Below are positions 3,477-57,837 of a stretch of 60,000 nucleotides of DNA, piece by piece (position 1 is the first letter of the stretch; each line of letters starts with the position of its first letter). The notes below the pieces were generated by a model, which saw only the letters and a program-made list of their open reading frames with translations, was not told where the DNA came from and searched no databases. The stretch comes from Tubulanus polymorphus (Eukaryota; Nemertea; Palaeonemertea; Tubulaniformes; Tubulanidae), in contig NC_134026.1 of the NCBI RefSeq assembly GCF_964204645.1, positions 14,722,450 through 14,782,449 of the forward strand, written 5' to 3'. Both the position numbers and the translations under genes were made by a program.

Positions 3477-3495
3477 TTATTTAGAATAAAAATTA

Positions 3496-4504: not shown

Positions 4505-4521
4505 TTATATAGTGAAAAAAA
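4505..4521 (-). promoter_or_regulatory. T-run/TATATAAATG start signal before the 113-aa gene
   Basis: The minus strand reads AATTTTTTTCACTATATAA before the ATG at 4504. The spacer to the upstream penton-like gene is 17 bp and holds nothing but this signal. The same arrangement occurs in copy B before 58421. Confidence 0.5.
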
Positions 4522-5279
4522 TTACTCTCTACATCTTATAACTAATTCATAAATTACAGGGAAATTATTTAAATCAATTAAGTATCCATTATGATTTCTA
4601 ATTTCTAATCTAAAATTATTAAAACGAGGAATGCATGGTTTGAAATCACATTCTGTTAAATTATAATTTATTTGCGTTCCAAATTCTTTAACATTCTTCA
4701 ATGGTAAAATGTTTAGTAAACCAGAATTACAAGTTATATCTTTAGTTGCTTCGAATGTTTTTGTAGGATCGATTAAATTGCAATAAATATAGAAATGTGT
4801 AAAAGGCATTATATTTGGTGTAGCATCAGCATTGCGTATCCTTACATCTGGGGTTATTCCTAAAATTTTAGCTAAGGGTTTTTTAACTAGAAATTGATGT
4901 TGATCTTCATTACCTAATTTTATTCTTATTTTATCAGAACTATCACTTTTAATCAGTCTTAATCAAATCCAGCAGATGCACCCATTTTCAACCGAGCTCT
5001 TCTATTAATTTCCTGCGCTAATGTATCTAAATTATATAATCCTGGTTTAAGATAAAGATGAAACCATTTACTTTTATTTCTATCATGAATTAGAAAGACT
5101 CTATGTTCAATGGTTTTATCCGATACATTGTAAAAAGAATTACATAAACTTATATTAACTAATTTTAAATCAACACAATTCTTGAATTCTCTATCTAATT
5201 GTACTAGTAAATTATGAGATTTATAATTTGTAAGTCTTCTAGAATCAACAAATATTCTGTATTCTTTTAATTCCACCAT
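4522..5279 (-). pseudogene. Minor capsid (penton-like single jelly-roll) protein, frameshifted
   Basis: The N-terminal part (5279-4959) begins MVELKEYRIFVDSRR and includes VDLKLVNISLCNSFYNV and HLYLKPGLYNLDTLAQEI. The C-terminal part (4809-4522) begins FTHFYIYCNLIDP and includes NILPLKNVKEF and NHNGYLIDLNNFPVIYELV. The last block matches the pattern of the minor capsid/penton proteins of Polintons, where an IYVYCDI-type strand is followed by a Leu-Pro-Leu segment and a final domain ending in a hydrophobic strand. Copy B reads on through 4960, where copy A has lost one C (AATCAAATCC against AATCCAAATCC). Copy B has its own one-base loss elsewhere, so neither copy is intact. Both are 758 bp, one short of 253 codons. 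Confidence 0.75.
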
Positions 5280-5296
5280 TTATTTTACATATTTTC

Positions 5297-5638
5297 TTAT
5301 TCGAAATCTATTTCATGGTGCCCTTTTTCATTCTTACCTTTGTATACGAAATAGAAATCTCCAGAACATAATTCTTCTAAATCTTCACTTGATAATCTAT
5401 GAAATCTATCCGGTAAATATGTTCTGAATTTATATGTATTTCCTTTTAATCCTTCATATTCTAAGTGTATAACTAATTTATCTCCATAGTTATTAGTAAC
5501 TGTATCAATATTTGTAATTAGATATTTCTTATGGATTGTTAATTCTGTTAGTTTTTTAAATTTATAATCTACAGATTTGACGCTTGAAGTATCTTTAATT
5601 CTATCTAAGAATTCACTGTGTACTTGTTTACTCTCCAT
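5297..5638 (-). CDS. Small conserved Polinton protein, possible single-stranded DNA-binding role (113 aa)
   Basis: An intact frame begins MESKQVHSEFLDRIKDTS. Hallmarks are a central beta-rich segment with KKYLITNIDTVTNNYGDK, then FRTYLPDRFHRLSSEDLEEL, and an end FYFVYKGKNEKGHHEIDFE. The family of short proteins with FLP-R and a terminal Tyr-x-Gly-Lys-x-x-x-x-His motif often accompanies protein-primed polymerases in invertebrate elements. An OB-like fold and DNA binding is my inference only. It sits immediately downstream of polB (28-bp spacer). Close relatives lie at 59211-59564 (same place in copy B) and, on the opposite strand and more diverged, at 50356-50682. Confidence 0.7.
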   Translation of the reverse strand: MESKQVHSEFLDRIKDTSSVKSVDYKFKKLTELTIHKKYLITNIDTVTNNYGDKLVIHLEYEGLKGNTYKFRTYLPDRFHRLSSEDLEELCSGDFYFVYKGKNEKGHHEIDFE

Positions 5639-5666
5639 TTATTATACAAATTTTTATTGAAATTGA

Positions 5667-8600: not shown

Positions 8601-9698
8601 ATCAAATACATTTATTTTAAGATTATTATCTCTTTCTATTTTTGGAATATTTTTAATTCTAACAGGATACTTATCTATCTTATAATTATTTTCAAATTGT
8701 TTATAATGAGTTAATCTATAAGTATGTTTATTATAATCTTCAACTGGGTGTAAACAACTTATTATAGCCCATAGAAAACATTTATCATCTTCATTTTGTA
8801 CATTTATTACACCATTAGTTTTAAATGGTAGTTTAATATAACTTGTTCCATTTATACTATCATCTTTATAATATGATAAATTATTTTCATCAATTGGTTT
8901 TGATTTAGTTAACTTATTATATTTTGTGTTATAAACATGTAAAGTTATAAATATTATCTCATCAAATATTAAACCAGATCCTTCAAAATATTTCTCTTCT
9001 ATTTTAGTTTTTATTTCATTATAACATTTATTTAATTTATCATCTATATGTTGTTTAGATATAATATGTTGTGAATGAGAATTTATATTATATATTGGTT
9101 TATCTTCAGATTTTATAAACTTTACTTTAACTGATATACTAATTTTAGGATATTCAACATCTGTAATTATTTTTATTATTTCTTTCATATTTTCTAAATG
9201 TTTTTTATTTTCTTCTAATGTTTTACCTTTATGAAATTTAAACTCGATAGCTGCTGGACCAATATCACTTTTAAATGCTTCGGTTATCTCTATATCTTTT
9301 TTATTATCTAATGAATTAATATAATTTCTTACATCTTCCATGTATGGTCTTTTATTGTTTAATTTATTTTTTATTCTTTTAATTGTCTTCTGTTTCTTAT
9401 CGTTATCATTATCAAAATAATCTTCGCCTAAAATATCATTATTCTTATTTCTAATATGACTTATAGATTTTAAATGTTCTTTATAATATCTTTTATCACT
9501 GAATGATTGATTACATGTATCACATTTGTATGTTTCTTTTTCATTCTTTAATTCTTCTAATTTAGTTTCTAATATATCATCTTTATATTCTAGTTTCAAT
9601 TTATTCTCTAAATGTGTTCTAGTTTTATTGTGTCTTGCTTTTTGGGATTTATCTATATCGATATTACATGTTGGGCAGTAGTACTTATTTGCTTCCAT
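5667..9698 (-). CDS. polB: Protein-primed DNA polymerase B (Polinton type, 1343 aa)
   Basis: This is the replicative polymerase of the element, expected to copy a linear DNA from protein-primed ends. I see two N-terminal C2H2-like fingers (CPTCNIDIDKSQKARH from residue 8; CDTCNQSFSDKRYYKEH near 58) and a further C/H cluster near 430 (CRKCLHKFSNESTLLNH). Exonuclease motif I is YGDFESF near 485, and an HNH-like insert reads VRDHDHLNGKFRGAAHEACN near 615. Exonuclease motif II is NLSGYDAHLF. Polymerase motif A is LYIDANNLYGW near 903, motif B NNAFYGKTCENI near 1071 and motif C YLDTDSY near 1167. All catalytic acidic residues are present and the frame is open over 4 kb. The length fits Polinton PolBs. 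The start follows an AT-rich TATTAAAATG context. In copy B a different gene occupies this place. Confidence 0.95.
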   Translation of the reverse strand: MEANKYYCPTCNIDIDKSQKARHNKTRTHLENKLKLEYKDDILETKLEELKNEKETYKCDTCNQSFSDKRYYKEHLKSISHIRNKNNDILGEDYFDNDNDKKQKTIKRIKNKLNNKRPYMEDVRNYINSLDNKKDIEITEAFKSDIGPAAIEFKFHKGKTLEENKKHLENMKEIIKIITDVEYPKISISVKVKFIKSEDKPIYNINSHSQHIISKQHIDDKLNKCYNEIKTKIEEKYFEGSGLIFDEIIFITLHVYNTKYNKLTKSKPIDENNLSYYKDDSINGTSYIKLPFKTNGVINVQNEDDKCFLWAIISCLHPVEDYNKHTYRLTHYKQFENNYKIDKYPVRIKNIPKIERDNNLKINVFDLIKLPNTKGNNIKHYTLEPLYLSKDYDSNDVIDILYYENHYMWIKQIDLFFKSENDHHKIYLCRKCLHKFSNESTLLNHKQLCDNHDYCKLVLPSEKDKILEFKKYDYKNKVPFVIYGDFESFNKELTDKDRKDIYYKRKKLNSNESDYSEEPPITNTIKKIHQSAAAFGLYIKSDYPELIESEYYQYRNENVINHFCDLLIEYEIRFSKLLNTNKEIIMTEEDKEVFEFADKCYYCEKLFNYKDKKVRDHDHLNGKFRGAAHEACNLQAKKVNFVPIIFHNLSGYDAHLFIKQLCHKIEEINNEIEILNSNRSKDKIPTYKFRMLAKTSENYISFQFGCLRFIDSYRFLNSSLDNLSKSLVDDELKILKEYYPNYDDFKLMRYKGAIPYSFYKNHNDFKITELLKEQFYDELKNEYVKDEVYNRTLNIWNHFEIKNHGQLVDLYLKSDVLLLTDIFERFRDVNLKYFNIDPCHCYSSPGLTWDCGLKFTDIKMDLLTNIDQLLLFEKSIRGGVSGVLGDRYFNVNDNPGYKLLYIDANNLYGWAMMEPQPYGMFEITEVLQIDKFDWKKRILDIADDSDIGYFFVVDLEYPENIKFKSRNLEYCPEHKTVKHEELSNYQKRIKPDNHIHTEKLMVTQEDKYNYVVHYRMLKFYLRQGMILKKVHRYISFNQSKWLEKYIDFNTTQRTEAKTDFEKDYFKLMNNAFYGKTCENIRNRNDIELVSNGKRIRHLQSYPKFIGNRIFDENLAAVKLKRTSMKFNKPIYVGAAVLELSKLLMYEFYYNVLQPHFGEKNIEILYLDTDSYILKIKSDNITDDLKILNHHFDFSNYPKDHELFSNDNKKVPGKFKDELGGEEMIEFIGIRSKMYSYKTKEHEAKKLKGITKSVVEKNIHFKDYINCIFNEEVRKHKMKCLRSEDHEMYIEEIEKISLNPFDDKRYILDDGIHTVAYGCNLDEYIKFKREETKENEIMKRILAC

Positions 9699-9780
9699 TT
9701 TAATACTATATTTTTTATTAAAATTGATTTTAGAAGTTCAATGATTTAAATGTTATTCATATATATATGAATATTTTAAG

Positions 9781-16949: not shown

Positions 16950-18425
16950 GGTGAAATAATCATAATTAAACCTAGTGTTTATTATTAGTGCGTGTTAATT
17001 AATTATCGTCTGCACCTTTGTTATGGTCTCCGCTCAAAACAAACTCAACCACCTTAGAGCTCGAATTTTAAACAATCACCAATATAACAATACAGACTTA
17101 AACCTAACTTCACTTCTCAACGATCAGGATCCAAATCTATCTCTAAATCTAAATAGTTCACCTTACTACGACCTTTAACCTTTGAATCTATCCTATTAAT
17201 GATTCCAACTTCAATATCCTTAACTGGAACTGTAATGGTATTCTAGGCAAACTAAACGAACTTCAAAATCTCCTAAATATACTTAAAACCAAAAAAGAAA
17301 TACTTTTCGATGCAATAGCCATACAAGAGACTAAACTAAACTCCACAACCGAATCACTAATAAATCTTCAAAACTACAACTTCATATCAGATTGCACAGA
17401 TTCCCATGGAGGTGGTATAGGACTATTCCTTTCAAAAAACTTTCAGGATAAAGAATGCACACTCATTAACAAACCGACAACAGACCAAAATACACACATT
17501 CAATGGAAATTCATCAAAATATGGAAACAAAATGAAAAACACAAACAAAAAATAATAGGAATTGTCTACAAACCCCCAGCATCAAATACACTTAACTTTC
17601 TTCAGGCTTTTGAAAATGAAATTGCTAAATTAAAATCCGAACTCAGAAGTACTTATTTGTGGTGACTTTAACATCGATATTATCAAATCAACTCAAAATC
17701 CACAAAGTTCCCGATTTTTTGAAATTATGACCACAAACTCATTGACTCATCTTACCACTTTACCAACTAGGGTAACTCATCGAAGTGCCACTCTAATAGA
17801 CAATATATTCACCAATTCACACAACAACTATCACTCGGGTATCTTAACTACACCACTCTCGGATCATTTTCTCACATTCGCTTGCAGTCTCTCCAAAAAA
17901 CAAACAAATAATAGCAAGACTTTCAACACAAAACAAATAATCAACGAACAAGGAATGAAAAACATTTGTGAAAAACTAAGAACAACTAATTTCCAAGCAC
18001 TCCTTCACGATGATGACACCCCAATTAACGATGCCTTTGAATCGTTCTCTTCGACTATTAATCATATTATTGGATCTGAAACAATAACCAAGAAATTCAA
18101 ACACAATAAATATAAGACACCCAAAAAACCTTGGATTACGAAAGGTATAATTCAATCAATATACAACAAAGACAAAAAATATAAACATTTACTCTCGATA
18201 AAAAACCCTACTCTTCAAATAGTTGAATAGAATAACTATAAAATCTATAAAAATAAACTTAACTCTATTATCAGAGCAGCAAAAAACAGCACTATCAAAA
18301 ATCTTTCGAATCTGCAAATGGTAACATCAAAAACACATGGAAAATCTTACAAGAAATAATCAACAAAACAAACAACAAGCAAGACATCACGCACTGATTC
18401 AAAATCAATAACACTGATACAGACT
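16950..18425 (+). mobile_element. LINE (CR1/Jockey-like) 5' half: leader, endonuclease, linker; then interrupted
   Basis: From 17210 the plus strand reads NILNWNCNGILGKLNELQN, DAIAIQETKLNS and DSHGGGIGLFLSKNF. Then come IIGIVYKPPASN and a weak match to the CGDFNID motif near 17660 after a frameshift, followed by TTLPTRVTHRSATLIDNIF and SDHFLTFACSL. These are the successive motifs of an apurinic-type endonuclease of a non-LTR retrotransposon. At least one frameshift lies near 17655. The linker (NKYKTPKKPWITKGIIQSIY) leads toward the RT domain, then the element stops at about 18425, where CATCGTTTTTACCCGTCAAA iterons begin. The second half resumes at 29031. CR1/Jockey placement is approximate. 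Confidence 0.8.
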
Positions 18426-18637
18426 CATCGTTTTTACCCGTCAAAATCATCGTTTTTACTCGTCAAAATCATCGTTTTTACCCGTCAAACATATTGTTTT
18501 TACCCGTCAAACACGTCGATTTTACCCGTCAAAATCATCGTTTTTACCCGTCAAACACGTCGATTTTACCCGTCAAAATCATCGTTTTTACCCGTCAAAT
18601 TACGCATCAAACCACGTATTTGGATGAGTATTTGGAC
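18426..18637 (+). repeat. Left end: about eight tandem iterons plus 58-bp inverted repeat
   Basis: There are eight or so units of the form (C)ATCGTTTTTACCCGTCAAA, some with ACTCGTC or GTCGATTTTACCC variants, spaced about 19-21 bp. The last unit runs into TTACGCATCAAACCACGTAT and TTGGATGAGTATTTGGAC. The final 58 bp match the right end exactly in inverse orientation. Iterons at transposon ends usually bind the transposase; that role is inferred. Confidence 0.85.
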
Positions 18638-18738
18638 CAGGTTTTGCACGGTGGCGCATAATTAGACAGGCAACCAGTCTATTGTTTTAGCATACGGCGC
18701 GCTTTTTATGTTCGGACCGCTCCAGCCGACCAGCCGAC

Positions 18739-21700
18739 ATGGACGTAATATTAGAGGAAATCGGGTTGAAACATTTAGTTCCCAAGTTCACTATTGAAAA
18801 AGTAAGGATGCTGCACACTTGAAATTTGCAATACGGGATACCAAATCCGTAATTAGTTGAAGCCGCAGCTTAAGAGATCACGTAACCGCTCACACAAATG
18901 CAAATTCAAATTAAATTTTATGGCGCAAATGTATGGGGTTTTGAATTTGGTGGTTTAAATTTAATGATAATGATGAAATCAAAATGATTTCAAAGATGAT
19001 CTATAAACAATAACTACTTTAATTAATCTAATTAAAGAAAGTTTGCATATAGGCCTAGGCCTAGTTCTAATTAGCATTTGTTGGTGGTTATACTTAGTTA
19101 TCAGAATATACTTATAATAGAGTCTAGAGAGAGTGGTTTGGCCTCCCCAAATCAGTTTTTCATTCTATCAAATTTACTCTCGATTTCACCATTTTGGGTT
19201 ATTTCTAGTTTCAAACGGAACCCTATCTTGGAATGTCATATGATATATTACCTCTTATCATATGTTTTATACTTCAAATGGTATTTACTATATTGCTATT
19301 GACATTGTACTTCTGGAGGATGATATCCTCCAAAAGCTGTGAATTAAAATACCGTCGCGCAAAAGGTAAGTAGTAAGGTTAATTTGCATAAATTTAGGAA
19401 AGTAGAATAGATTATCTCGTGATTTGTCATGTAGGCCTATATGGTTATTTAAGTTTTCACCTTTTTTCACTGTAGCAGGTACGGATGTGACGTCTGAACG
19501 TAAACGGTTATTTTCATCGAGTACTACTCAGAACCAAAGAAAAGGGAAAAAGGAAGAAGTGATTCTGCATGTGTTCTGTTTCGCTGAAAAAGATACGGTG
19601 TTGAATTTGTTGCACATTAAAAGAATCGAGCCAAGGGTAAATCAATCCTTTGGGGAATAAGGAACAGATAGTAATATCGCAGGCACTTGAACTGGCTTTG
19701 ACCTTGTTGGTGTAAATGAAATTTTTCTGTAATCTATGACAATAAATCCACCAGTTATGCCATAATTTACCCAATTTACCCATGATGAAACCGTTTTAGC
19801 CATGATCCAATGCGTGCCCCTAGTTACCCATATTATAGGCCTATAACATATTTGCTAGTGAATCATTAGATTTCTCCATTATCAAAGCCCATATTCAAGT
19901 GCCCGTGGTAAGGTAAAATGGATTGAATTGAATGAATTAGGCCAAAGTAATAAGTCAGTCGAATTTAATCGTTCGTACCATATTACTTCAGCCAAGTGAA
20001 CTTCACTGTTTGTGGATATTGTTTTCCTGCTACAGTCTACACTCTGTATCAAATATCTTGATAAACACTCATCTATCGGAAAACGTTATTCAGGGACACA
20101 AAATGATAGGATAATTTGCTTTAATTTTCAATCAAACATAAACCTCATTATTCATTTCAGGAATCATGGGTTGGCCATAAATCGGCCACAATTGATTTGA
20201 TATCAATGGGCTTAGGTAAAAAGGTGTTACCTTTTTCCAAAACCGATACTATGCCCATGATTCGGCAGCAAATTATTGCTGAATATCAAGGACTCGATGA
20301 ATGTGGAGGTTTCGAGTTTGCAACCCTAGACCAATCAACAAAAATGCTCGAAATCTTAACTGTACCCTCGACCATGACGGCTGGTCAATTGAAGATTGTA
20401 TCGGGACGTAGTCGTTTGTACGTTCGACCAATCCAGAAGGATATTTCTCGGAAGGTAAAATTATGGTATCTACTGTGTCAATATTGCAGTCTAAATGATT
20501 TGGATTAGCTTTAAACTGCCATGGGTGCAATCTATGTGTTTTATCATCAGCAAATACAGTTAACAAAATGAAAAACCAGCCTTGGGTCTTGAAATTACAT
20601 CGGTGTATTGCAGTTTGACCACATTACAGAAAAAGTATTCGCACAAAACTTCTGGCTTCTATCTCTCCAACCAGCGTTTAGGGGTGGTGATCTGGTTTGC
20701 TAGCCTCGTAGTTATATTGGTCCGATACTATCGTATATATATATATATATAACACTTCTACATACTAATGAACAGCTTTTTAATATGCATTTTGTAGCAT
20801 AACTCGAAAGGTGAAGAAGATGAGTACAGTAGTTGTATCGTTTGTGGTCGTTCTATCAAGATGTCAGGAACTCAGGAAACATTCAATGAATTGTTCATCA
20901 GGGTACGTATTGTGTGCCGGTGTCTAAGAAATACGAAAAACGCCACCTACTCACGCCTATATATCATTGCGGGAGGTTGTTGGGTCCAAATTTTTTTAAT
21001 ACACACGTGTTTCCTTTTGAAAGATTACTGGCATGATATGTGGTGACTTGATTTCACTGACAGCTCCTAAGTCAATGGTTGATAATCAATTTTGTATGTG
21101 AACTATTTTATATTTGACAGGTTGGATGATGACTTTTCAGACGATGGTGATTTCCTTCCCCCCAGAAAAAGGTGTGTTAGCAATCTCATGTTTCGTTAAA
21201 TTGTATGAACTAGTGGAAAACCCGTGGAAACCACAAAGTGGTTTTTAGCCCACTTAGGACTTAAATCCCAGCGGGCTATTACATCCACTTTTCGTTTGTC
21301 CGTAGACGTAATCCAGTTATTTTGTGAAGTTTTGAAGATGCTTCAATGGATTGTCTTGATAATTGGTTTATACATGTATCTACCCTAGATACATCTTCTG
21401 CCCAAATATTGGCCCGATCAGACTCAAGATGGCCGACTTGCAGCCATTGTTGTGTGCCAAAATCAGCACTTATTACACATTTTTGAAGTTTTTAAGGCAA
21501 ATTTTGAAGATTTTGACAAATTATTTTGATATCAAATATATATTAATGTAGTCCCTCAAAATGGCCCCAATTGCAGTTTCATAATCAACACCAGGGGGTG
21601 TTGCATTTAGAAATTATTGATATCCATTAGTCAAAAATCTCTGCCTATGCGTGGTGTCCCTGAACCACTAGTTTGCTTTCTTAAACTTCATAAATAATTT

Positions 21701-24479
21701 TTGCAGGTAAACATTACCATTAACAACAAAACCAAATGAAACTGAGGCATGTAATATCCAGCCTTCTACGAGCACTGCTTCCGCTGGGGGAGAAATATTC
21801 GTAACAAGGTATTTGGTTAATAACATGCCAATGCTTTTGCTTTATATAATAATTAAACGATCAACCTGAATGATGTCAATTTCAGTGGCCATTGCCCAGT
21901 ATGTGATTTGTCAATGCCTCTGACAGAATTACCTTTGCATGCTGCAAGCTGTGGAGATATCGAGACAGGTGTCACTACTGAGAAGTATATTTTGCATTTT
22001 ATCCTGCTTGCATTCACTCTGCGTTCCCCTGTCGGTAGAATTAATCTGGTTGTGTTGAAATGTTTTGAAGATCTTTCGATTGATTGTCCCCAGGTTCGGT
22101 ATGTTTGATCAATCAGTCAGTAGATGGAATCAACTTATTTTGGGAAGTTCTGAAGATGCTGTATTGGATTGTCTTGATATTTGGTTTATACTTGTAACTA
22201 CCCAAGTCAGAGAACTGGGCTGGTCAGTATCAAGATGGCCAACTGGGGGCCATTGTTCACTGAACTTGGTACTTTTACACATTTTAAGCCCACTTGGGAC
22301 TTAAGTCCCAGCAGGCGATTGCTTTCAATCTTCGTACATCGTGCGTCAACAGGTTTTATGTTTATTTATTTGGGTATTTCGCACTGTATAAGTGGAATAT
22401 GTTTATGTCTAAGTAATTCATATTTCAGAAGTTTCATGGATGCACTCTCAGAGAAATGGAATGCAATTGAAAAACCCTGTTTTCGTGTAAATGTTGTGCG
22501 GAGTGCGTTTATCAAAACTGCTATGGAAGAACTTGCTTTTGCAAGTGAGGATGATTGGAACGGACGTATCAATGTAATGTTTATGGGTGAAGATGGTGTT
22601 GATAACGGCGGACTCACTCGTGAATTTTTCTCACTGCTGTTTAGGGAAACTCCATTGATAAACAGAGAGCATGGTACTTTCGTACACAACGCACATTTTT
22701 TGCAATCGATGGATTTTAAGGTGCTTGGGAGATATGTAGCACTTGCTTTAATCAGTGGACATCCACGGTGTTTCAGTTCATGGATTGTAGATTATATGCT
22801 TCTGGAGAAATACCCTGCAAACTTTACCAAGTTACCAATTGCTGCAGACGCTTCATCTGCCATTAATGAGGTTTGTAACATTAAGACCCTAGGAATGCTG
22901 TCATCCTTTTTAATGCCACTACTCACTTAACGCCAACATTTTTGAGAGAACAAATTCCCTCAATTTAACTCCAATGCAATGAAAATTCCATTCTTCATTA
23001 ACGCCAAAATTTTAACGCCATATTTTTCATCGATCCCAATAGTGGTATTATGAAGGACTTACGACTGTGGTTTCAAAGTGACAGTTATGATTTTCCATTC
23101 ATTAGAAATAAGTGCATGATACTAGCTAAAACAAAGGTAAGTTATCTACAGTTATTTCGGGTTCTATAGTACACTCCCAGCTATCGTACAATTCATGGAA
23201 GGTAAGAATACTGGATTTGCTCATCATTCATACATTACTCTTGTCCCCAATAAAGAAAAAAACAGACCCGAGTATGAGCTTCTCGCCAAATCAGATCAAT
23301 TTCTAGTCCATTCCAAATCAGACCAACTTAGTTCTATAGCCAATGTAGCAACTTAAGACCAGTCATGAGATTTATGACCACTTTTAGGACTTAAACCATG
23401 ACTGTGCAACCAGCCCCTGGTCGTTAAATTGTAAAATTAATGATTTTATACAACAATGTGAACTAAAAACTGTTCAAACGCCTGCAGTTATATTAACTTT
23501 TCACGCTATATTCGAAGAATTCTTTATTTGAATGTAGGTTTGGAACTGAGAGGAATTAAAAACTTGATGTTTAAATTCGCTGATGAGGCGCGAGCAGTCC
23601 TAGAAAAAGGCCAAGTTAACGAGGTGGAAATTATTGACTTTTACCAACCGTTATACTCAAGCAAAAGGGATGAGAAAGAACGTGAAATTCTAGTTGTCTA
23701 CAATTTTTCCCGCTTCATGAAAAACGTTGGAAGTGAGTATATGAATATATTGAGTATATATTTATATTGTTAGGCCCAGCTACTGCACATCCGTTTTTCC
23801 TGTGTGTCCATGAGTAGTTAAGTTTCAGCCATTGGTTAGAACGATATACAAGTCTGATGTCACTATTGGGACAACTGAAATCATGGCATTTGATAAGGGA
23901 CCATGCTAAGGAGGGGCTCAATGAAAATGCATACAAATGCGTACAGGGGAGGTATGGGTACAACGCTCTGCATACAGTATGCACCAAATGATAATTTTTC
24001 ACTCTATTGACCTTTAATTGTTTCTATTTGGTGTATATGGTCGATGTTTTTGTTGAAATAATTTTTGTATTCATTCTGCATTCAAATAAATGAAGTGTGA
24101 TTTAAGGATTTGATATTCTTAATCACATTGAGATGTTACAACTCGCACACCTTTGTCCTAAAATTCATTCTTGACAAATTGATGTCCCCAATATATGAGG
24201 CAGTTGGAAAAGGTCCAAAAAATCTGAACTTATAATGTTCTAGTTCGCCACAGGTTGGCAGCACCAGCAGTTTTTGTTGAACTGCGTACATTGGCCAATG
24301 ACAATAGACAATGGTTTAGGTTGATTAATATGCATTGAGAAAAATATATGTATCTTTTCAGGAGGAAACGTAAATGTTTGCGAAGAGTTAATTGACTTGG
24401 AGAAGGTTCTACAGTGCTTGGTTGCTAGTCCACAGTTACCATTGAATGTTAAAAGTGGCACTTTAATTTTTGACCTGTA
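18739..24479 (+). CDS. SAM-UBZ-HECT E3 ubiquitin ligase-like gene of the transposon (multi-exon, probably damaged)
   Basis: Exon candidates, in order: 18739-18801, MDVILEEIGLKHLVPKF (SAM-domain helix); ~19285-19366, SAM remainder with an in-frame TGA (IDIVLLEDDILQKL then TGA then IKIPSRKR) and no good AG acceptor; 19480-19636, KKEEVILHVFCFAEKD; 20161-20454, MGLGKKVLPFSKTDTMP and DECGGFEFATL, ending SRLYVRPIQKDISRK; 20798-20900; 21121-21171, LDDDFSDDGDFLPP; 21885-21967, HCPVCDLSMPLTELPLHAAS (UBZ-like C2HC finger); 22429-22869, HECT N-lobe with GEDGVDNGGLTREFFSLLF; 23041-23135; 23539-23732; and 24364-24479 with a stop after GTLIFDL. The order matches the G2E3-like HECT proteins that are multi-copy in fish and invertebrates. 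The HECT C-lobe with its catalytic Cys is not seen, so ligase activity is doubtful. Exon edges are by eye. Confidence 0.65.
21245..21600 (+). repeat. Interspersed repeat, CCCACTTGGGACTTAAGTCCCAGCGGGC family
   Basis: It starts with a short palindrome (CCCACTTAGGACTTAAATCC, then CAGCGGGCTATT), followed by a TTCGTTTGTCCGTAGACG-like segment, GAAGATGCTTCAATGGATTG and a CAAGATGGCCGACT word. The same order of words recurs near 22130-22340, 40625-41250 and 41310-41990. This copy lies inside an intron of the HECT gene. Confidence 0.7.
22130..22340 (+). repeat. Interspersed repeat, same family, rearranged copy
   Basis: It contains GGAAGTTCTGAAGATGCTGT, TCAAGATGGCCAACTGGG and CCCACTTGGGACTTAAGTCC CAGCAGGCGATTGC in a different order from the other copies. 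It lies just upstream of the HECT N-lobe exon. Confidence 0.6.
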
Positions 24480-26146
24480 GCTAATAGCTGTACCTGTAGC
24501 TTGTAGCTAATACATGTGGACCGAGTCTCACCTTCTCAAAAATATCAGAAATAACAGACTACGCAGTTTTTGAGAAGGATATGCTACGATTGGTTGTAGA
24601 TGCTACTTCCTTTGGAATTGAGTAGATACGTTAATCTATTTTTAGCCAACTTCGTCTCAGCAGGCTACAGTGGCGTTGAAAGTGCAGAGACTGCAGCGGT
24701 CAAAGCCGCGGTAATAATTTACTGAATGACGTTTTTTTTCTTTGAATACGTTTTTTGAAAAAAGTCTTGTAGCTCCCTACTAGTTCGCTATTTTTCATTG
24801 CGATGGGTATTCTATGAAAAGGGCACTTTGATACGTGAGACAGGAACTTTTGATCAGCCATTCATCACGCAATTGGCGACCATCGCAGTGCCATCAGTAC
24901 TCATCATTGATAGGTGGAAAATGTTTTTTGAGGAAAATATCAACAGGTTTTAACTTTAAGTCTGTTATCAGCACTGTCGTGGGATACACTTCCTAAAAAA
25001 TCGTTACCTGTACTGACATAATAGCCATTGAGTTTTGCCTATGGTCACCAAGGGGCGTTGAATAGTAGAACAACTTAGTACATATATTTCCATATTATAT
25101 TGGTACATAGTCATGTTTAAAAGTAGTAGCTCCTGACACATTCTATGATTGTGGTGAGTTTTGATGTCATTGATTTTTGTATATGGTCAACAGGGGGTGT
25201 TGAATATTGAAATTGTTAGATTGTTGAGCATTTGAAACCATTTTCCAAGTGGGCATGGCGTCCCTGGACCCCTAGTTTCGAGTTTCATTGTTTAACCTAC
25301 AACAGTTCAAAGATTTCTCAAACAGGAATCTATAGAACTACATGCATTGTTGTAGAATATATTTTGGATATCATTTATTGATTTTATATGGATTAAGAGG
25401 AGTTGACAAGTAGAATATATTTTAAGAATCTATAGAACTACATGCATTGTAAAAGAATATATTTTGTATCGATTTTAGCAGTTCTTCAACACAAATCTAA
25501 GTAACTACATGTAATGCATTACCGCGGAACCTTGTTACTATGAACTTCACGGGATCAGAAAATATGTTTGTTTAAAATTGTCTCACATCCTTATATACAA
25601 TCTTTAGAACTGCATGTTCAACAGTTCAAAGAGTTTATTCGATTTAGAATGGATTGGTTGCAGCTGTTTTCATGTATAATTAGTCATCTGGAGATATACT
25701 GATTAACTTGTCTATTTTTTGTCAGAGATCAGAACATTTGTCTTTGACCTAGTCAAAATTAACCCTCTGATGTTCAGTCATACCCTATCACTGATCTGTC
25801 CATGTAAAACTATCCTTTACTGTCATAGTTGTATATTTAGTGCAATTGGGCCAGTTGCTCAAAAAAAGGTTAAAGATAACCGGCCGTTAAATATCATAGT
25901 AACAATGAAATTTCAATTGTCACCATATCAACTATCCACTGGTTAACTCTCCAACTTTTGAGCAACCGGCCCGTGGTTTTTAGACTGACTGTCAATTCGG
26001 TTTCTATCATGAACTCCACATATTAGCCCCATTTGTTGAGTTCCAGTTCAATCAGAAAGCAGTTGGAACACTAAAGCATTTAGAACACTGATTTTAGATA
26101 AATCTTTGTATTTACTACGCGTTACTGTTTATGAATAATATTAATG
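24480..26146. other. Spacer between the two convergent transposon genes
   Basis: No HECT C-lobe and no other gene is seen. A possible exon with good splice edges lies at 24646-24712 (acceptor TTTTTAG, donor GTAATA) reading FVSAGYSGVESAETAAV, unassigned. Part (about 24770-25260) is a copy of the interspersed family seen at 41040-41240, with GATCAGCCATTCATCACGCA-like words. Short duplicated words (AATCTATAGAACTACATGCA) occur at 25330 and 25430. Confidence 0.45.
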
Positions 26147-28360
26147 TTAATTTGAATAAACCACAATTGAATTTCTAATTTCATGATAAATTTCTTTTTT
26201 ACTTAATGCCTTTTCAGAAGAAGCCGTCTCCTTAAGAATTGATATTTCATCATCGTCAACAATCGTCTCAATAGGATGGACTCGTACTTGATTTTCAGTT
26301 TCAAAATCAACATCCAACTGCTCCATAACTTCTCTCTAAAATGGAAAATTTGGAGGCTTGTATACCAATATAACATACATGCATTTTAATGTAATAGATA
26401 ATTTTTGGTTTTGCTTTTTACATAAAAAATCCCAGTTAATTTGGACATTTTTGAACATTTGAGTTTAAAATTACAGCCAAACCTCGTTATAATGCCACCA
26501 TCGGGACATGGCTAATTTCGGCGTTATAACGAGAATGGTGGTAAAAGGGATCATTTTTTGATTACGTACGCATGAAATTTGACTTTCCACTGTATGCCAC
26601 TTACCAAATCATCTTGCAGTGGTGGAGTTCCAAAATTTGTACCTCTCAGCCAGAGTTGTGTGGGAGATTGGTTACCAGCAGTACGAATCCTATGATGGAC
26701 CCACGCTTCTTTGAATCTATCCAAGGAATGGTTGATATCCTGATATACAATATGTAGCGCCAAAAGATCAAGTTCTGAATCTGGGTCAAGAAGACCGGCC
26801 TCTTCCAATTCGAAAAATTCTTTTTTGTATGTATCTAGAACACTAGTATATACATCTCTCCATAATCTTTCTATTCGTTGGTTATGGACGCTTCTGTCTG
26901 CAATGAAATGTCCTGGGCCTCTCTCTGAATGAGCAATCATAAGATTTTCACCTCCTTTGTCCGTCCTGACAACTCTTGGTAGCCCATATTGATCGACAGC
27001 TTCAGTGAAACATCGTAAAACTGTTTCGGCAGTATTGTTATCATTGCATTTTAAAAACACTGGTATTCTGCTATAGCCATCGATGGCTCCATGTATAACG
27101 AAACGCCACCTGCAATAGGCATTGACAAGAAATGTTTAAAATGAGTAAATTCTTCAAAAAAATATCGAATATCAAGTAAATTAAACGATACTATTTACCG
27201 TACGGTATCAGTTTGTGGTTGCCATCCATATGCCATAGGTAGTTCGGTCCTGGGACATTATATTCTCGTCTCCTAAAACTTTGCGTTTTTCTAGCATTAA
27301 CCCCGGCATTATCCACTCTGTGCAGTGAGAGCTGGACGCGCTTTTCACTTATGTGAAACCCTATCGAGCATAAATGTCCTAAATGCATGCGAAGTCCCCA
27401 GTTAGGGTGGTGTATGACAGCATCTTCGACAAGGATGTCTAAATTAAATAAATACCATTTCACACATATAACAAATGAAAGTGTTTTAATGTGATAATAT
27501 GTGGATGATTAGTTTGAAAATAACTGTAGGAAGTGGATATTTTGCCAATGCAGCATTATTTTCAACGCTATTTTGTCAGTGGCTATATACTAAGATACAT
27601 TGATAAAATATAACAATAAAATCATTATGTTTGGTTTGGACTTAGGGTCCAGGGGGTTAAGGTGAGGTTTAGGGCCCGGTGATCTTGTGGAAAGATGTTA
27701 GACTAGCAATACGCTGGTCCGGTTTCGAATCCGCTCTATGCTGCTATTTTCTCTAAAACTCTGTGTGTTCTCCACACTATCCTCCAATTTTCTTCATGCG
27801 TGGTGTAAATTAGCCAATCAGAACGTGCCATTGGCAAAATAGCGTTAACAGGAATAATACCGCATTGGCAAAATATCACTTGCCATAACCATTATATATA
27901 TACCAGTGACATGATCAGATATATCTTTTAGCCGCAAGCCATTTTCACTTAATCTTCGCGCTACGGTATTCTCTGAAATCTGATAAAATCACAACATATA
28001 GAGAAGATCTGTGTTCAAGTGTCAGAATGCTGGGAAATTGAACATTGTTATCCTCAACCAAATTGTGTGGCCTGCTGTAGAAAATAGGCATCGACATAGG
28101 TCTTAAAAGAGCGAACAGTTATTTGGAAGGACTGCAGTTCCAGGCGTCCTTAGTCTTATGTACTTAAAACAATTCCAGTCGTAAAACTACAAGGCCTAAA
28201 ACTAAACACTAACAACAATGGGCAGTAAAGTAAACAACATAATAAACAGACTCACGTCGAACATTCCTCCGATTTCTTTGTACGAAAAGCCTTGAAGAAT
28301 CATACTTTCAAGAGTATTTTGCTCAATTTCGAGCTTATGACGTCTACCGGCAGCAGCCAT
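26147..28360 (-). CDS. DDE integrase-core transposase, five exons, apparently intact (369 aa)
   Basis: Exons on minus: 28360-28256, 27979-27904, 27438-27204, 27109-26605 and 26335-26147. All have GT/AG edges and add up to 1110 bp in one continuous frame of 370 codons including the stop. The N-terminus [20 protein letters not shown], then [20 protein letters not shown], forms a helix-turn-helix. The core reads [12 protein letters not shown] (D132), [11 protein letters not shown] (D189) and [12 protein letters not shown] (E219), the DDE triad of retroviral-type integrase folds. The tail is acidic. The family is the integrase-core proteins that are multi-copy in fish and many invertebrates. It is convergent to the HECT gene and lies inside matching inverted iteron ends, so it is the likely mobiliser. 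No lesion seen. Confidence 0.88.
27668..27745 (+). repeat. tRNA-derived SINE-like head inside an integrase intron
   Basis: TGATCTTGTGG resembles a polymerase III A box, and GGTTTCGAATCC about 45 bp downstream resembles a B box with one extra T. Between them lie GACTAGCAATACGCTGG-type arm sequences. A normal tRNA fold is not obvious, so a SINE promoter relic is more likely than a tRNA gene. Confidence 0.4.
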
Positions 28361-28413
28361 TTTACAAGGGGATAAATCATTACATTACAGCTGTTATAAA
28401 ACAATCTAGTGAA

Positions 28414-28535
28414 GTCCAAATACTCATCCAAATACGTGGTTTGATGCGTAATTTGACGGGTAAAAACGATGTGTTTGACGGGTAAAAACGATGATTTTGA
28501 CGAGTAAAAACGATGAGTTTGACGGGTAATTCGAA
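28414..28535 (-). repeat. Right end, inner part: 58-bp inverted repeat and about three iterons
   Basis: 28414-28471 is the exact inverse complement of 18580-18637. It is followed by TTTGACGGGTAAAAACGATG units at about 20-bp spacing and a final partial unit ending GGTAATTCG. Unit variants (ACGAGTAAAAACGATG) match a variant unit of the left end. Confidence 0.85.
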
Positions 28536-29030
28536 AATACGAAGTTTGAATTTTGACAGTATATCTACGATAGGGATTTTGACGCGTCAAACGATCATTT
28601 AATTTTGACAGAATATCTACGATAGGGATTTTGACGCGTCAAATGATAACTAGTTTTGACAGTATATCTACGATAGTAACTAGGTAATGCGAGATCATAT
28701 TTGACGCGTCAAATACGATGTTTTGACGAGCATTTTATGTTGAATTGTCGGCAGCGGACACCGGCCCGGAAAGAATTTCAAAACGTGTATTGTCGGTACC
28801 TAGCACGATTTCAGCGTTTTTCGGGAATTCCCTGAAATTTCGGCGTTTTTCGGAAATTCCCTGAAATTTCAGCGTTTTTATTTCAGCGTTTCAGCTTTTC
28901 AGTGTTTCAGCTTTTTCAGCGAAGTTCAGGAACCGGTAAAAAATGAAAGTTTGACGGGTAGAATATGAAAGTTTGACGGGTAAAATATGAAAGTTTGACG
29001 GGTAAATTTGATGTTTAATTTTGACAGGAT
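28536..29030. repeat. Right end, outer part: three further tandem repeat types
   Basis: (a) Three ~50-bp units with TTTTGACAGTATATCTACGA, two of them running directly into TAGGGATTTTGACGCGTCAA (28549-28740). (b) A ~100-bp block of TTTCAGCGTTTTTCGG, AATTCCCTGAAATTTC and GTTTCAGC units (28810-28925). (c) Three units of ATGAAAGTTTGACGGGTA (28942-29010), related to the iteron core TTTGACGGGTA. The left end has no equivalent of (a) and (b). This points either to a lost left segment or to a later insertion here. Confidence 0.7.
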
Positions 29031-30426
29031 ATCATAAGTAATCGCTAACTCTTTCAACAATCACTTCAACGAAATTGGCGAAACCTTGGCTAACAATTCA
29101 CCTAAGCCCCAGTTTTCATCAGACTTTTACCTAAATAAAGTCCCCAAATCTAATTCAAATTTCTTGCTCTCACCAGTTTGTGAACAAGATGTCATAGAAG
29201 TTGTAAGGAATCTTAAACAAAAACACTCAGCAGGCCAAGATAACATTTCAACGCATTAAAACAAATTATCAACTATATCTCTTGTTCTCTCACACACCTT
29301 ATCAATCAATCTCTCAAAACAGGGGTTTTTCCAAATCATCTTTAAACAGTCATACAAAAACTAAATACATTATATTTCATAACTACCAAAGAAAACCGTT
29401 CTTGTATCACAATTTCCACATCAAATTAGGCGATACCGTTATAGAACGAGTAAAGCAAACAGACTTCCTAGGTCTAAGGATACACGAAAATCTCAATTGG
29501 AAACCACGCATCGAAAAAATACACAAAAAAATCTTTCGGATCACTGGAATAATAAACAAAACCAAGAACATAATTGACTATCAACACCTTGTTACACTTT
29601 ACTATACCCTCATATATCCTCACCTAACCTACGGGTTACTAGCATTGGGAACCTCGCAACACAACAACAAATGCCTACTCGTCCAGAAGAAAATTGTCAG
29701 AATCATAACCAAATCAAATTATACCGCCCACTCTGATCCTCTCTTCAAAAAGTTAAACATTCTCAAAATAAACGACATCCTCATACAAAAAACCACCATA
29801 TTCATCCATCATACTTTACTATCGTCACCACATCATTTCAAAAACATCTTTACCATTGAAAACCTTTATCCCACTATCAACACCTACAAAACATTCAACA
29901 TGATCACACATATTGTCTACCTCTAAATCAACCAAATACAAGTACTAAATCTTTCTCAAAAATGTTCTCAATTTGGGAAACCTTCCCTTCTCAATACAAA
30001 TGCTGCACATGAATAAACATACACTTAAACACCATCTAAAATCACATCTCACCTCCAAATACAATATGAACATAATCTGCAACAACCCAACCTGTTACAA
30101 TTGCTCCAAATTTGCCAATACATCAACTTAATGTCTCATTATTATAACAATACAAGTATTCCCTAAACCATTCTACTGTTCTTATAAATTCTCTCAAGCA
30201 CGAGCTCATCTGTTTCTTATCTTATCTCTTTCTTTTTCTTTATTCTCTCTCTTTCATTGGGTGCCTGCGTTAGCGGCCTTTAAGGCTTTGCAAGAAGGCC
30301 CACATGGATAAGCGCTATAATATTTGTAAATTTGTTTTATTTTCTCGTTCTCTTTTAAATTTGTTTAGCTTTCTTATGATTTTATTGTTCTGCTTTTCCG
30401 TGAAATAAATATTGAATTGAATTGAA
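29031..30426 (+). mobile_element. LINE 3' half with the RT core deleted, ending in a TTGAA tail
   Basis: It resumes the LINE of 16950-18425: ANSFNNHFNEIGETLANN, LSPVCEQDVIEVVRNL and SAGQDNIST (start of the RT domain). It then jumps near 29270-29340 to KTKYIIFHNYQRKPF and RVKQTDFLGLRIHENLNW. The C-terminal region follows, with HLVTLYYTLIYPHLTYGLLA and VQKKIVRIITKSNY. The part that should contain the catalytic YADD motif is missing, so this copy cannot make an active reverse transcriptase. The 3' region ends AATAAATATTGAATTGAATT, a short tandem tail common in CR1/L2-like elements. Confidence 0.8.
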
Positions 30427-34217: not shown

Positions 34218-35668
34218 TTGCGTCGTTTTTATGATAATTTAGAGCTGCATATCCGAAGTCTTGAATCTTTGAAGGTCGCGGCCGAGTCCTATGGTACACT
34301 TCTCGTTCCTATTATCATGAATAAATTGCCCGCTGTGGTAAAGCGGAACATTGCGCGTGCGAATGGGAGTTGCGAATTTGAATTGTCTGTGTTACGTTCT
34401 GCGATATTAGATGAAATAAATATTCTCGAGTTCTGCGATACGTCATCAGCCGGAACAATGACGTTACTTCTCGTCGACAATAATACCGCAAATTATGTCC
34501 ATGATTATAATCGTGTGAAGTTTAAATGTCGTTTTTGTCAGTCGAATGACCATTACCCTACGGCTTGTGGGCGTTGAACCGCAGGCTAGGCTGAATTTTG
34601 TTTTACGAAACAAGTTATGTTTCAATTGTCTTGGGGCTCATAGAATGAATAAATGTTCGTCAAAGGGTTCATGTAGAGTTTGTAACAAACGACATCATAC
34701 TAGTATTCATAGGGCGGAATTTCCAGGGCAGTTGAAAGTTCAAGTTCATTCTATTAATTCGAAATCTGGGCCCTCACGTCCACCGGTAGCTAAAACTCCA
34801 CGTGAATTACAACATGGTAAAACGTCTAATAACGTTTCTAATTCAGATTCAGGGTCTTCAGACTGGCATTGATGATTTACCGCCGTCAGTTTCTGAATGT
34901 AATCATCTTTCCATGGTTGAGGGTGGTGTTTCCTCTACTATATATTTGAAGACAGCTGTAGCACCGGTGGGGAGTGAAGGTACTCGTCTTAATGCTCACA
35001 TACTATTAGATGATGGATCACATCGTACTTTTGTTACGTCGGCATTAGTTCGCCAGCTAGGTGTTAAACCTCATAGATTTGAATCCGTTGATTTGAGTGG
35101 GTTCGGTGCTGTCGGTACTGGGTCTAGAGTAGTTGATGTCGTGTGGATCAGTATTATTGCGTGTACTGTTGATAAATCAGTTGTTTCTGTAGAAGCTATC
35201 GTTGTATCGGAGATAACCAGACCACTCAAGAGTTTAAAACGGTTCGGTTAATTGCATACCTGAATTTAAAGGTTTGAATTTTGCCCATCCGCCGGGGTAC
35301 AGTTCTAGTTCCTTTGATATCTCATTACTCATTGGATCTGATAATTACTACCTTTTTGTTCTTGGTAATCAGTTCATTAAATCTGCAAGTGGTCCGGTTG
35401 CTGTTCCGTCGAAATTGGGTCATTTAATTGCGGGTCGGTATAACGGTGATGACTTAACCAATTCTGTTCAATTGTCTATAATTGCTGAACCTGACACTTT
35501 CGATCTCAGACGTTTCTGGTCTCTAGAAATGTTGGGTATAGAGTCACCTACTGACCGAGATACATATTTTCTGGATGAGTTCTGTAGTAAGTCTATCATG
35601 TTAGTAGACGGGAGATACAGGGTTAATTTGCCTTGGAAAGATAATCATACTACCCACAAATTATAATG
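34218..35668 (+). pseudogene. BEL gag zinc knuckles and aspartic protease, three broken frames
   Basis: Gag end: RRFYDNLELHIRSLESL and then the CCHC-type knuckles FKCRFCQSNDHYPTAC and CFNCLGAHRMNKC-SKGSC plus CRVCNKRHHTSIH. Protease: AHILLDDGSHRTFVTSALV, where DDGS is the active-site loop typical of BEL proteases. Then come LIGSDNYYLFVLGN, GPVAVPSKLGHLIAGR and FWSLEMLGIES before the RT. Frame changes near 34560, 34850 and 35255. Confidence 0.8.
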
Positions 35669-35703
35669 TTTCCAAATGTTTCCGCATCGCTAAAACCGAA
35701 GGT

Positions 35704-37099
35704 TTGTTGGAGAAGTATAGTGCTATAATTACTGATCAATTGTCACGTGGGTTTATTGAGAAATTCCCTCCGTTTCTAGCACTCGTGAGCATTATATTCT
35801 TAATCACCCGGTTTTCAGGCAGTCATCTACTACTCCGATTCGTATTGTTTTCGATTGCAGCTGTCGACAGTCGAAGTCTTCCGTATCTCTTAATAACTGC
35901 CTGGAAGCTGGGCCACCGTTGCTGAACGATATTACTCTAGCGATTCTAGAGTGACTCTAGCGATCCGGAGAGCGAGTTTACTATATATAGATTCAAGCGT
36001 ATCTTGTTCGGGGCAACATGTTCACCCTTTTTATTGAATAGTTGCATTATATACCATTTGCGAAATCATGAGAGTAAACTTTCTCTACAACTTCTGAGAG
36101 ACATATATGTTGATAACATTGTAATTAGTGTTCCTACTGAGTCGGATGCTTTGCGTTTTTTCCACGGTTCTAGATAATGTTTCTCGGAAGTCAATTTCAA
36201 TTTACGTTGTTGGTCTTCCAACTCGAAAGAGCTCCAAAAGTCTGCTACTGATCAGGGGGTTATAGAAAGCTCTACTGTCGTGAATATTTTTGGTATCAGT
36301 TGGGATGTTGAAAAGGAGTTGTGAGTTGTCTTATTTTCCCAAAGTTTTATCATCTGTTTATCCATGCACAAAACGCCTTGTCCTACAGAGAGCTGCAACA
36401 GTTTATGATCCACTAGGTCTCCTAGCTCCAGTTACGATTCGAACTAAAATGCTATAGCAGGATATTTGGAAGCAAAACTTTGACTGGGATGAACCCTTGT
36501 CAGTAGAGTTTCGAACTGAATGGCAAACTATACTTGTTGATATTCGTGAGAGTTTAGAGTTGAGTTTCCCTCGTATTGTAAATCGTCATTTACTGGACGG
36601 TACATATTCACCCGTTGAGTTACATGTCTTTTGTGACAGCAGTACATCCGCTTATGGAGCCGTTGTTTATATTCAGTGTAGAAATGGATCAAGTATTTTG
36701 ATTGCTAAAGCTAGGGCCGCACCTGTCAAGGAACTCACGGTCCCTGCGTTAATTGGTTTGCGATTGATTAAACATGCTTATGATTCTATATCTATTGTTA
36801 TTGATTTACCTGATGGACTCTTTGCGTGGTCCGACAGTCAAATTGTACTTGGCTGGCTTCGTTCGAACAAGAAGTTGTCTGCTTTTGTTTCTAACCGTGT
36901 AAAAGAGATTCAGTCTCTCGTATCAGCTGAAAACTGGCATTATTGTCCTACAGCTTTCAACTCGGCTGATTTGTTAACAAGAGGTGGTTCAGTTCAAAAT
37001 TTGAAGTCCGATTTGTGGCTCCATGGTCCAGATTGGTTGGTCAATGATTTATGCCGACCCGCTCTTGTTGACACGTCAGCGGTGTTACATTTGATGTAA
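35704..37099 (+). pseudogene. BEL reverse transcriptase remnant and RNase H
   Basis: 35704-36490 holds only scattered RT words in changing frames (LEKYSAIITDQLSRGFIEK; a YVDNIV-like piece near 36105). From 36497 a clean frame gives VEFRTEWQTILVDIRESL, then ELHVFCDSSTSAYGAVVYI and KARAAPVKELTVPALIGLRL. FAWSDSQIVLGWLRSNKKL and AENWHYCPTAFNSADLLTRG follow. These are the RNase H-like domain motifs of BEL/Pao polyproteins. The RT active site cannot be found intact. Confidence 0.75.
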
Positions 37100-37158
37100 T
37101 TAATGATGATTCGATCCATACGAATCATATCATAGATGTTCCTGGTTCTATTGATCAA

Positions 37159-38478
37159 GTGATCAACATTGATGATTACTCGTCTTTGATTGTATTGTTG
37201 AGAGTTACGGCTTATGTCCTTCGTTTTATATTTAACCTGAAATGTCGTGGTGATGGACGCGTCACGCATCCACTTCATGCTTCTGAAATCGACGAAGCGG
37301 AATGTTTGTGGATTAAACGGCTGCAAGATGTATCGTATCATGACGTGAAAACTAACCTCCTTAATGGTTCGAAGAAACGTTGTTCATTAATCGGTCAACT
37401 CCAGTTGTTCCTTGATGAAAGGGGCATAATTCGTTGTAAGGGACGCATTCAAAATTCTTCATTACCATCTGATATGAAATGTCCTATTCTTATTCCAAAA
37501 CATTCTCGCTTAGCCGATTTGATAGCACATGACGCACATTTGAGAGTATTCCACCTGGTTGTTCCTGCCGGTCGCTAAGATTAGAGAAATGTATTGGATA
37601 ATTCAAATTCGTCAGTTCATTAAGTCTCATGTGCGACGTTGCGTGACATTCCGAAGGTAACAATCTTTGCCATATCGACGGCCTGATTCTCCTGCGTTAC
37701 CAGAATTCAGGGTGTCTGAACTACCAGCATTTAGTTATACGGGACTGGATTACTGTGGTCCTTTTATTGTTAAGGGCAATGTGAAATGTTGGGTTTGTTT
37801 ATTCACATGCGCGGTTTCGCGCGCTGTGCACATTGAACTTGTTTATAGTAATTCTACCAAAGATTTTCTTCTCTCTTTCAGACGTTTCGCAGCAAGACGC
37901 TCCATACCAAGGCTTCTAATTTCTGACAATCAAACTGCTTATATTGGAGCGAACGCTGAACTACGGCGAATTTATCGCGACACCAAAGTACACAATTTTC
38001 TCTCTCGGAGAAACGTCGATTGGAAGTTCATAGTGAAACGCGGACCTTGGTATGGAGGCTTCTGGGAACGGCTTTGATGAAGGTACTCGGTAGAACGTCT
38101 GTTACTGGTGTCGAGTTGTACACGGTATTGTGTGAGATAGAAGCTTGGTTTACAGGGGACAATCGTGAGATTGCTAAACCTGGCTCTGTTGTCATCATAC
38201 ATGATGAAAATATCCCTCGACTAAGGTGGAAATTAGGAATAATTCAGAAATTGCACAGGGGTAGTGATGGTTTAGTAAGATCCGCCACTGTCAAAACCGC
38301 TACTGGTGTAACTAGTAGGCCCATCTCAAGGTTATATCCACTTGAGATTGATACCACTATTGAAGAGAACAAAGCTTGTTCAGATCCTGTTGACACAGAT
38401 CAAGTAGCTTCTAAACCTGTCCGTAGAGCTGCAGAGTTAGCTAAACTTAAGATCAATCAGTATTTTGCTGATAATTGA
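37159..38478 (+). pseudogene. BEL integrase, split by frame changes
   Basis: Zinc-binding part: CKGRIQNSSLPSDMKCPILI and LIAHDAHLRVFH. Core: TGLDYCGPFIVKG (first D), CAVSRAVHIELVYS, LISDNQTAYIGA (second D, where SDN-T is usual) and RRNVDWKFIVKRGPWYGGFW (E region). C-terminal: SVVIIHDENIPRLRWKLGII and SRLYPLEI. Frame changes near 37580 and 38050. The frame is mostly readable, so the insertion is not very old. Confidence 0.8.
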
Positions 38479-57834: not shown

Positions 57835-57837
57835 TTA

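Follow-up and report, generated by a model that had tools for sequence, protein, structure and literature searches.

A relic of a probable IS3EU-type transposon in Tubulanus polymorphus with a DDE transposase gene and a convergent HECT-type gene

The window analysed here, a stretch of 60,000 nucleotides from the nemertean Tubulanus polymorphus (assembly GCF_964204645.1, contig NC_134026.1, positions 14,722,450 to 14,782,449), contained a 10,612-bp insert that interrupted a long interspersed nuclear element (LINE) at 18425–29036 and carried a DDE transposase gene and a convergent gene of the HECT ubiquitin-ligase type. On sequence grounds the insert was judged, with a probability of about 0.87, to be a damaged copy of an IS3EU (IS3EU/GingerRoot)-type transposon, whose relatives encode a helix-turn-helix (HTH)–DDE transposase and a SAM-HECT ligase that the element would need. 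Three LINE copies (94% identity) ran through the junction without the insert, and the borders were placed at 18425 and 29036 because these copies read across the site. The uninterrupted copies had the sequence GATACAGAC-GACCCAGC-AGTAATCGC, and the window had GATACAGAC, the insert and AGTAATCGC. The initial annotation, which had described a LINE split by about 10.6 kb of DNA, was correct in this respect, and its limits of 18426–29030 were revised by the comparison. The same comparison, which it had proposed for defining borders and target duplication, yielded the borders; eight LINE bases were lost at the insertion site and no target site duplication (TSD) was left. The sequence AGTAAT may represent the lost duplication. 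The interrupted LINE contained an endonuclease-type match at 17634–18230 (PF14529, E = 7.6e-6), just under the cut-off.

The DDE gene was located on the minus strand and was composed of five exons, which were joined through GT-AG sites into an open frame of 369 codons, as previously proposed. Exons 1 (28256–28360, with the start codon) and 2 (27904–27979) encoded the HTH part and were supported by splice joining and profile match. Exon 3 (27204–27438; splice joining and alignment) contained the first catalytic D codon at 27226–27224, and exon 4 (26605–27109; alignment and PF24764) contained the second D at 26961–26959 and the E at 26871–26869. Exon 5 (26147–26335), placed by splice joining, ended in a TAA stop at 26149–26147. 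The 369-residue protein matched PF24764, 'Integrase core domain', with an E value of 8.3e-70, and also PF00665, and its N-terminus gave HTH-like Pfam matches below the cut-off. The integrase zinc finger (HHCC) was not found among Pfam matches up to E = 1. In exon 4 the second D and the E were separated by 29 residues (D-x29-E), and the copy on C8 had 15 more bases (five codons) in this interval; the spacing D-x56-D-x34/36-E was present in all 11 relatives of alignment A1. In the transposase homolog search 1852 proteins passed, and fish and sea cucumber were among the named sources in the 120 listed. One T. polymorphus protein, P0003 (LOC141902527), was nearly the same by eye as the transposase of family 2, one of the related families described below. 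No relative was found in viral contigs scanned with the DDE protein and with alignment A1. Predicted structures were poor, with mean pLDDT values of 54 for the DDE protein and 31 for the HECT protein, too low for use.

The second gene lay on the plus strand, tail to tail with the DDE gene. Its SAM-like first exon (18739–18801; MDVILEEIGLKHLVPKFTIEK, then GTAAGG) and an N-terminal module (20161–20454; GLG..GGFE..YVRPIQ) were assigned by eye, the former because it resembled the exons that encode SAM in families 2 and 4 and the latter from its likeness to the module of family 2 and of the proteins P0001 and P0002; neither had a Pfam match of its own. The second SAM exon, as read by eye, also held a stop. 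A zinc-finger-like exon (21886–21984; C-x2-C..H..C) was without a Pfam match, and its earlier label of UBZ was left unconfirmed, as the family 2 counterpart gave only zf_C2HC_14 below the cut-off (E = 7.5e-4). The HECT N-lobe exon (22429–22870; MGEDGVDNGGLTREFF) matched three family 2 copies at 34–35% identity over 108 residues (E = 1.8e-7 to 7.6e-7). It was followed by a middle exon (23538–23732), the limits of which were set by eye, and by a C-lobe exon (24362–24480), which on frame reading ran into a premature TAG at 24478–24480, upstream of the candidate catalytic cysteine. The C-lobe tail LVANTC..FGIE (24500–24625) continued in a shifted frame, with the candidate cysteine codon at 24515–24517 and the motif ANTCGPSLTF out of frame. 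HECT, SAM and UBZ were not found by Pfam in the window's own exons of this gene; its HECT assignment was based on the family 2 matches and the C-terminal motif. Of the convergent SAM/UBZ-like/HECT gene in the initial annotation, the orientation and the HECT identity were retained; none of the three domains was recognized by Pfam in the window exons, and the frame was broken.

Both genes were flanked by an exact, fully complementary 58-bp inverted repeat, with arms at 18580–18637 and 28414–28471, which could be extended without gaps to 116 nt at 93%. As annotated before, tandem iterons adjoined the repeat: 22-bp units were present in 8.0 copies on the left (18425–18599) and in 3.5 copies on the right (28452–28529). 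In the outer right end (28530–29036), repeats of 52 bp and 29 bp were accompanied by another block of 22-bp iterons (28935–29006); the left end was without the outer part that the right end and the other copies have. The last bases on the right were GATATC-ATA, at the place where other copies had GATATCTATGCCATA. The outer end of these copies finished GATATCTATGCCATA or nearly so, and therefore the element should begin TATGGCATAG. The true termini were missing or damaged in the window copy. The window copy is a relic, with a truncated left end, a damaged right terminus and two damaged genes.

Complete units were found elsewhere in the genome. The family 2 copy on C6 was a 9,810-bp element with identical terminal inverted repeats (TIRs) of 297 bp. 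Family 2 copies were 98.3–99.6% identical and were located at different loci, and four of the five copies with DDE and HECT genes (C6, C10:5246272-5256062, C3, and C5) had a TIR at both ends. The ends were 28 kb apart on C3 and 35 kb apart on C5, so these copies were taken to hold nested inserts. The TSDs were exact on C3 (TCACTC/TCACTC) and C5 (GTTCTT/GTTCTT) and agreed at five of six positions on C10 (CTCTTC/CTCTAC). In family 4, the one full copy read (C1:4406522-4416409) held both genes between TIR arms of over 1.2 kb, which were 98.7% identical and built of 144-bp tandem units, and was bounded by AATATG/AATATG. In total, five units enclosed DDE and HECT genes between paired repeats (four in family 2 and one in family 4), and three of them had exact 6-bp duplications; the repeats are therefore the ends of one unit. 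This supported the earlier proposal that both genes are cargo of one mobile unit, and the repeats did not belong to a separate short element inserted twice. Exact 6-bp duplications were also present in six of seven short family 4 derivatives read, which were chosen from about 10 inverted pairs. Among short elements of family 1, one on C9 had a duplication with five of six bases matching, and one on C12 had TCAGTT on both sides, one base out of register. From its sequences, family 4 appears to have been active recently.

Of 508 candidates for the 95-bp end of family 4, 40 were scored, and these gave 40 rows at 100% as well as two partial rows. The roughly 10 short derivatives seen as inverted pairs had ends 0.5–3.5 kb apart. 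Perhaps hundreds of such derivatives with identical 95-bp ends exist, apparently left by a recent burst.

SAM and HECT, which Pfam missed in the window, were above the cut-offs in these families. The second gene of family 2 matched SAM (E = 4.4e-5) and HECT (E = 7.1e-8), and that of family 4 matched SAM (E = 7.5e-7) and, over the C-lobe only, HECT (E = 7.2e-9). An open frame of 632 residues was reported at six family 4 loci, one of which was read. The N-lobe and C-lobe with cysteine that define a HECT E3 were present in families 2 and 4, with the Pfam match of family 4 limited to the C-lobe; the window C-lobe was broken. The cysteine motif was found at 8 of 12 loci scanned, as ANTCAMVIRLP in family 2, SRTCINVLYLP at C6:16897k and C1:17443k, SSTCINQLMLP at C2:16003k and ARTCAQILELP in family 4. 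At the remaining loci the HECT gene was cut short (C8; L010, L040) or ended ahead of the C-lobe (L015, L018). The family 2 HECT gene model is provisional at one exon and at the start codon. Its nearest full-length relatives were P0001 (EukProt; 27%) and P0002 (stickleback LOC120823632; 23%), the only two obtained when the best 7999 candidates by shared words were scored. The N-terminal module GLG..GGxxxL..IYIRPxQ was common to family 2, P0001 and P0002. Pfam gave HECT in both proteins and SAM in neither, and the P0002 cluster had 72 member sequences. By-eye reading of family 2 also gave an unconfirmed UIM-like stretch, and the minus strand of the C6 copy held a second SAM-like stretch (MNVVLSELNLHHLIERFQEENV) close to its right end (L049 ~1097–1330, element 8845–9078).

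The two genes were paired across the genome. The 117 matches of a Pfam HECT search (PF00632, E up to 10) were merged into 59 loci, and searches with the DDE protein (79 matches) and PF24764 (40 matches) gave 58 DDE loci. A HECT locus was present within 25 kb of 33 of the 58 DDE loci (two of the 33 shared one HECT locus), and 32 of the 33 were convergent. When loci were placed at random, 2000 trials produced 0.73 pairs on average and never more than 5. Within 5 kb, 28 of the 58 were paired, all convergently. When six HECT loci known only below the Pfam cut-off were left out, 26 DDE loci were paired at 25 kb, 25 of them convergently, against an average of 0.68 and at most 4 under random placement, and 22 were paired at 5 kb, again all convergent. 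With the window HECT pieces as query, seven matches were obtained at five loci, the window and four others, every one beside a DDE copy. Absence of such co-occurrence elsewhere had been named as a refuting observation in the initial annotation; both genes were instead found at other loci in the same layout. Transposases were compared at 13 loci, where no peptide was obtained from C6:16476k, C7:11413k, family 4 and the single-exon family described next; those of family 1, family 2, C1:17443k, C2:16003k and C3:13008k were 35–58% identical to one another over the compared stretch. The HECT match at C3:13008k was weak (E = 0.217), and C4:10200k was included in this comparison, yet had no HECT gene nearby. 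The other 27 HECT loci were not near a DDE locus; 10 of them had a single match and 17 had three or more exon matches, and the latter are likely host genes.

A second DDE family (L022, L023, L024 and L030) was characterized by single-exon frames of about 400 aa in L022–L024, copies 95–99% identical and TACGG at one end. It had no PF00632 match within 25 kb, and is perhaps an IS3EU lineage without a HECT gene or one with a HECT gene too diverged for detection.

Several observations weigh against an element that moves as one unit and depends on its ligase. The random-placement control ignored the clustering of transposons, and many paired loci were near-identical, so the pairs are not independent events. 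No HECT gene was detected within 25 kb of 25 of the 58 DDE loci, including the multi-copy TACGG-end family; this does not establish absence, since the window's own HECT gene likewise escaped PF00632, but some IS3EU-like relatives may lack the gene. The family 2 copy at C10:4848k had a single TIR, the C6 copy had no TSD in spite of both TIRs, and one of the seven short family 4 derivatives was without a duplication. The family 2 HECT gene carried a 1-base insertion at C10:5248k and a stop near its end on C5. The substitution counts bearing on selection, between the window and C8, were tiny: the HECT N-lobe exon had changes at 5 of 242 nonsynonymous and 5 of 64 synonymous sites, with a 1-base gap, and the zinc-finger exon at 2 of 74 and 0 of 22, with a stop. 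The corresponding counts were 5 of 394 and 5 of 110 in DDE exon 4 and 2 of 71 and 0 of 16 in DDE exon 1; DDE exon 3 had no C8 match.

The known systems used for comparison were taken from PMC10045372, PMC12730594, PMC2836005, PMC4411706, PMC7204232 and PMC12062965. As described there, IS3EU elements usually have 6-bp TSDs and ends TA..TA, and fungal IS3EU elements have 6-bp TSDs and the termini TAYGG..CCRTA. Additional genes are present in fungal members, namely TET/JBP and, opposed to the transposase, one for an alpha-kinase, and a second gene opposed to the transposase is therefore known for IS3EU. In the present elements, the termini were TATGG..CCATA in families 1, 2 and 4, and the single-exon family had TACGG at one end; TSDs of 6 bp were found in families 2 and 4, and TIRs exceeded 30 bp (297 bp in family 2, over 1.2 kb in family 4, and in the window 116 nt at 93%). 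The window copy had neither the terminal bases nor a TSD. The placement was based on these features, the PF24764 and PF00665 matches and the D-x56-D-x34/36-E spacing. The elements thus resembled IS3EU in termini, TSD, TIR, an integrase-like DDE protein without an HHCC match and the possession of extra genes, and differed in that the second gene encodes a SAM-HECT ubiquitin ligase. A HECT gene in IS3EU elements was unreported in the open-library literature searched, which covered neither Repbase Reports nor the original GingerRoot paper, and there was no mention of HECT in the main text of PMC4255032 or in PMC12062965. The novelty lies in a HECT ubiquitin-ligase gene that recurs as the second gene of an IS3EU-type lineage.

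Other systems shared some features. The Ginger1 transposase, also integrase-related, is tied to the ubiquitin/SUMO pathway by OTU or Ulp1 protease domains and has zinc finger and GPY/F parts; there a protease is fused to the transposase, whereas here a ligase comes from a separate gene and the 369-residue protein had no zinc-finger match. RAG-like (RAGL/ProtoRAG) transposons, known in a nemertean, have two convergent genes between TIRs, one of them for the transposase, and vertebrate RAG1, which descends from a transposase, contains a RING that acts as a ubiquitin ligase; the RAG-like transposons differ in a 5-bp TSD, another transposase and a Kelch-PHD partner, RAG2L, in place of HECT. The present elements, with a 6-bp TSD and a PF24764 transposase, were not RAG-like. 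Autoubiquitylation of RAG1 is reportedly the subject of a published study. The family 2 protein matched the cellular HECT E3 Rsp5 over 244 residues (E = 4.7e-6) and shared the C-lobe TC..LP motif with this class (Rsp5/NEDD4, E6AP), but had a SAM domain and an N-terminal module without a Pfam match. The B-family polymerase and virion genes of Polinton/Maverick elements were not found in the insert, where the longest stop-to-stop open reading frame (ORF) within 18426–29030, the HECT N-lobe exon, was 250 aa.

In the mechanism proposed for the IS3EU-type element, the transposase would use its N-terminal HTH to contact the iterons, cleave at TATGG and integrate with a stagger of 6 bp. The pairing recurs, as does the motif with the catalytic cysteine, in families whose transposases are only 35–58% identical, which suggests that the HECT protein would be a working E3 required by the element. 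In view of the convergent partners of RAG-like elements, the RAG1 RING and the Ginger1 ubiquitin/SUMO proteases, this protein could plausibly act in the transposition reaction or in host control. The best guess, held at a little under even odds, is that it ubiquitylates host chromatin, silencing or repair factors, and so assists excision, integration or escape from silencing. Action on the transposase itself, by which the protein or the joined complex would be removed after strand transfer or its dose limited, is somewhat less probable. A dedicated gene, convergent at nearly all paired loci, suits a direct partner, and the RING of RAG1 offers a precedent, but the sequence points to no particular substrate. 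It is unlikely that the HECT gene is passive cargo, captured once from the host and without a role in transposition. Accessory genes do move between superfamilies, such as TET/JBP in the fungal elements, and HECT was damaged in the window, in C8 and in two family 2 copies; however, the same layout was found in at least five families (1, 2, C1:17443k, C2:16003k and 4) with transposases as divergent as noted above, that of family 4 matching family 1 at 42–43% over 77 residues. In addition, the TC cysteine motif was kept wherever the C-lobe was read, and the 632-residue frame was reported at six family 4 loci. A domesticated host locus would fit the open 369-codon DDE frame but is very improbable, as the site was empty in three LINE copies, the ends were damaged, five codons were missing between D and E, the HECT frame was broken and related copies looked mobile. 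Short non-autonomous elements with the same ends do exist, but chance neighbours, whether two elements, a host HECT gene beside a DDE element or a short element inserted twice, were rejected from the random-placement control and the TIR/TSD units enclosing both genes in families 2 and 4, and have a negligible probability.

On the reading of the insert as an IS3EU-type relic, a wider suggestion can be made tentatively, at odds just short of even. In a large lineage of animal IS3EU elements, the HECT ligase may be a second gene that is both ancient and regular, acting in trans to enable transposition or disarm host control, and many multi-copy 'uncharacterized' HECT and integrase genes of fish, echinoderms and worms may be its two halves. 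If so, the HECT gene would be a transposon-encoded counterpart of viral E3 ligases. Ubiquitin/SUMO proteases and RING fingers in transposons hint at ubiquitylation in DNA transposition, and the Ginger1 paper suggested as much. This link becomes directly testable with a separate HECT gene that accompanies the transposase in several families, of which some have young copies. In the T. polymorphus genome, 32 of the 59 HECT loci had a DDE locus no more than 25 kb away, and tallies of HECT genes in genomes of this kind may therefore include transposon genes along with those of the host.

Further candidate mobile elements were noted in the window. Two gene clusters on the minus strand, at 148–9737 and 52033–59196, looked Polinton/Maverick-like. 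In the second, 52033–53448 matched an A32-type ATPase (PF04665, E = 5.8e-12) and, below the cut-off, an rve integrase; in the first, the ORF at 5667–9737, of 1356 aa, had an Endonuclease_7 match; ORFs 1616–2233 and 55744–56487 looked like near duplicates. A BEL/Pao-type retrotransposon piece was located at 34790–38478 (Peptidase_A17, E = 2.6e-21). At 43876–48423, a reverse transcriptase (PF00078, E = 2.6e-19) was followed by another ORF without a Pfam match, which we take to resemble a tyrosine recombinase as in DIRS elements.

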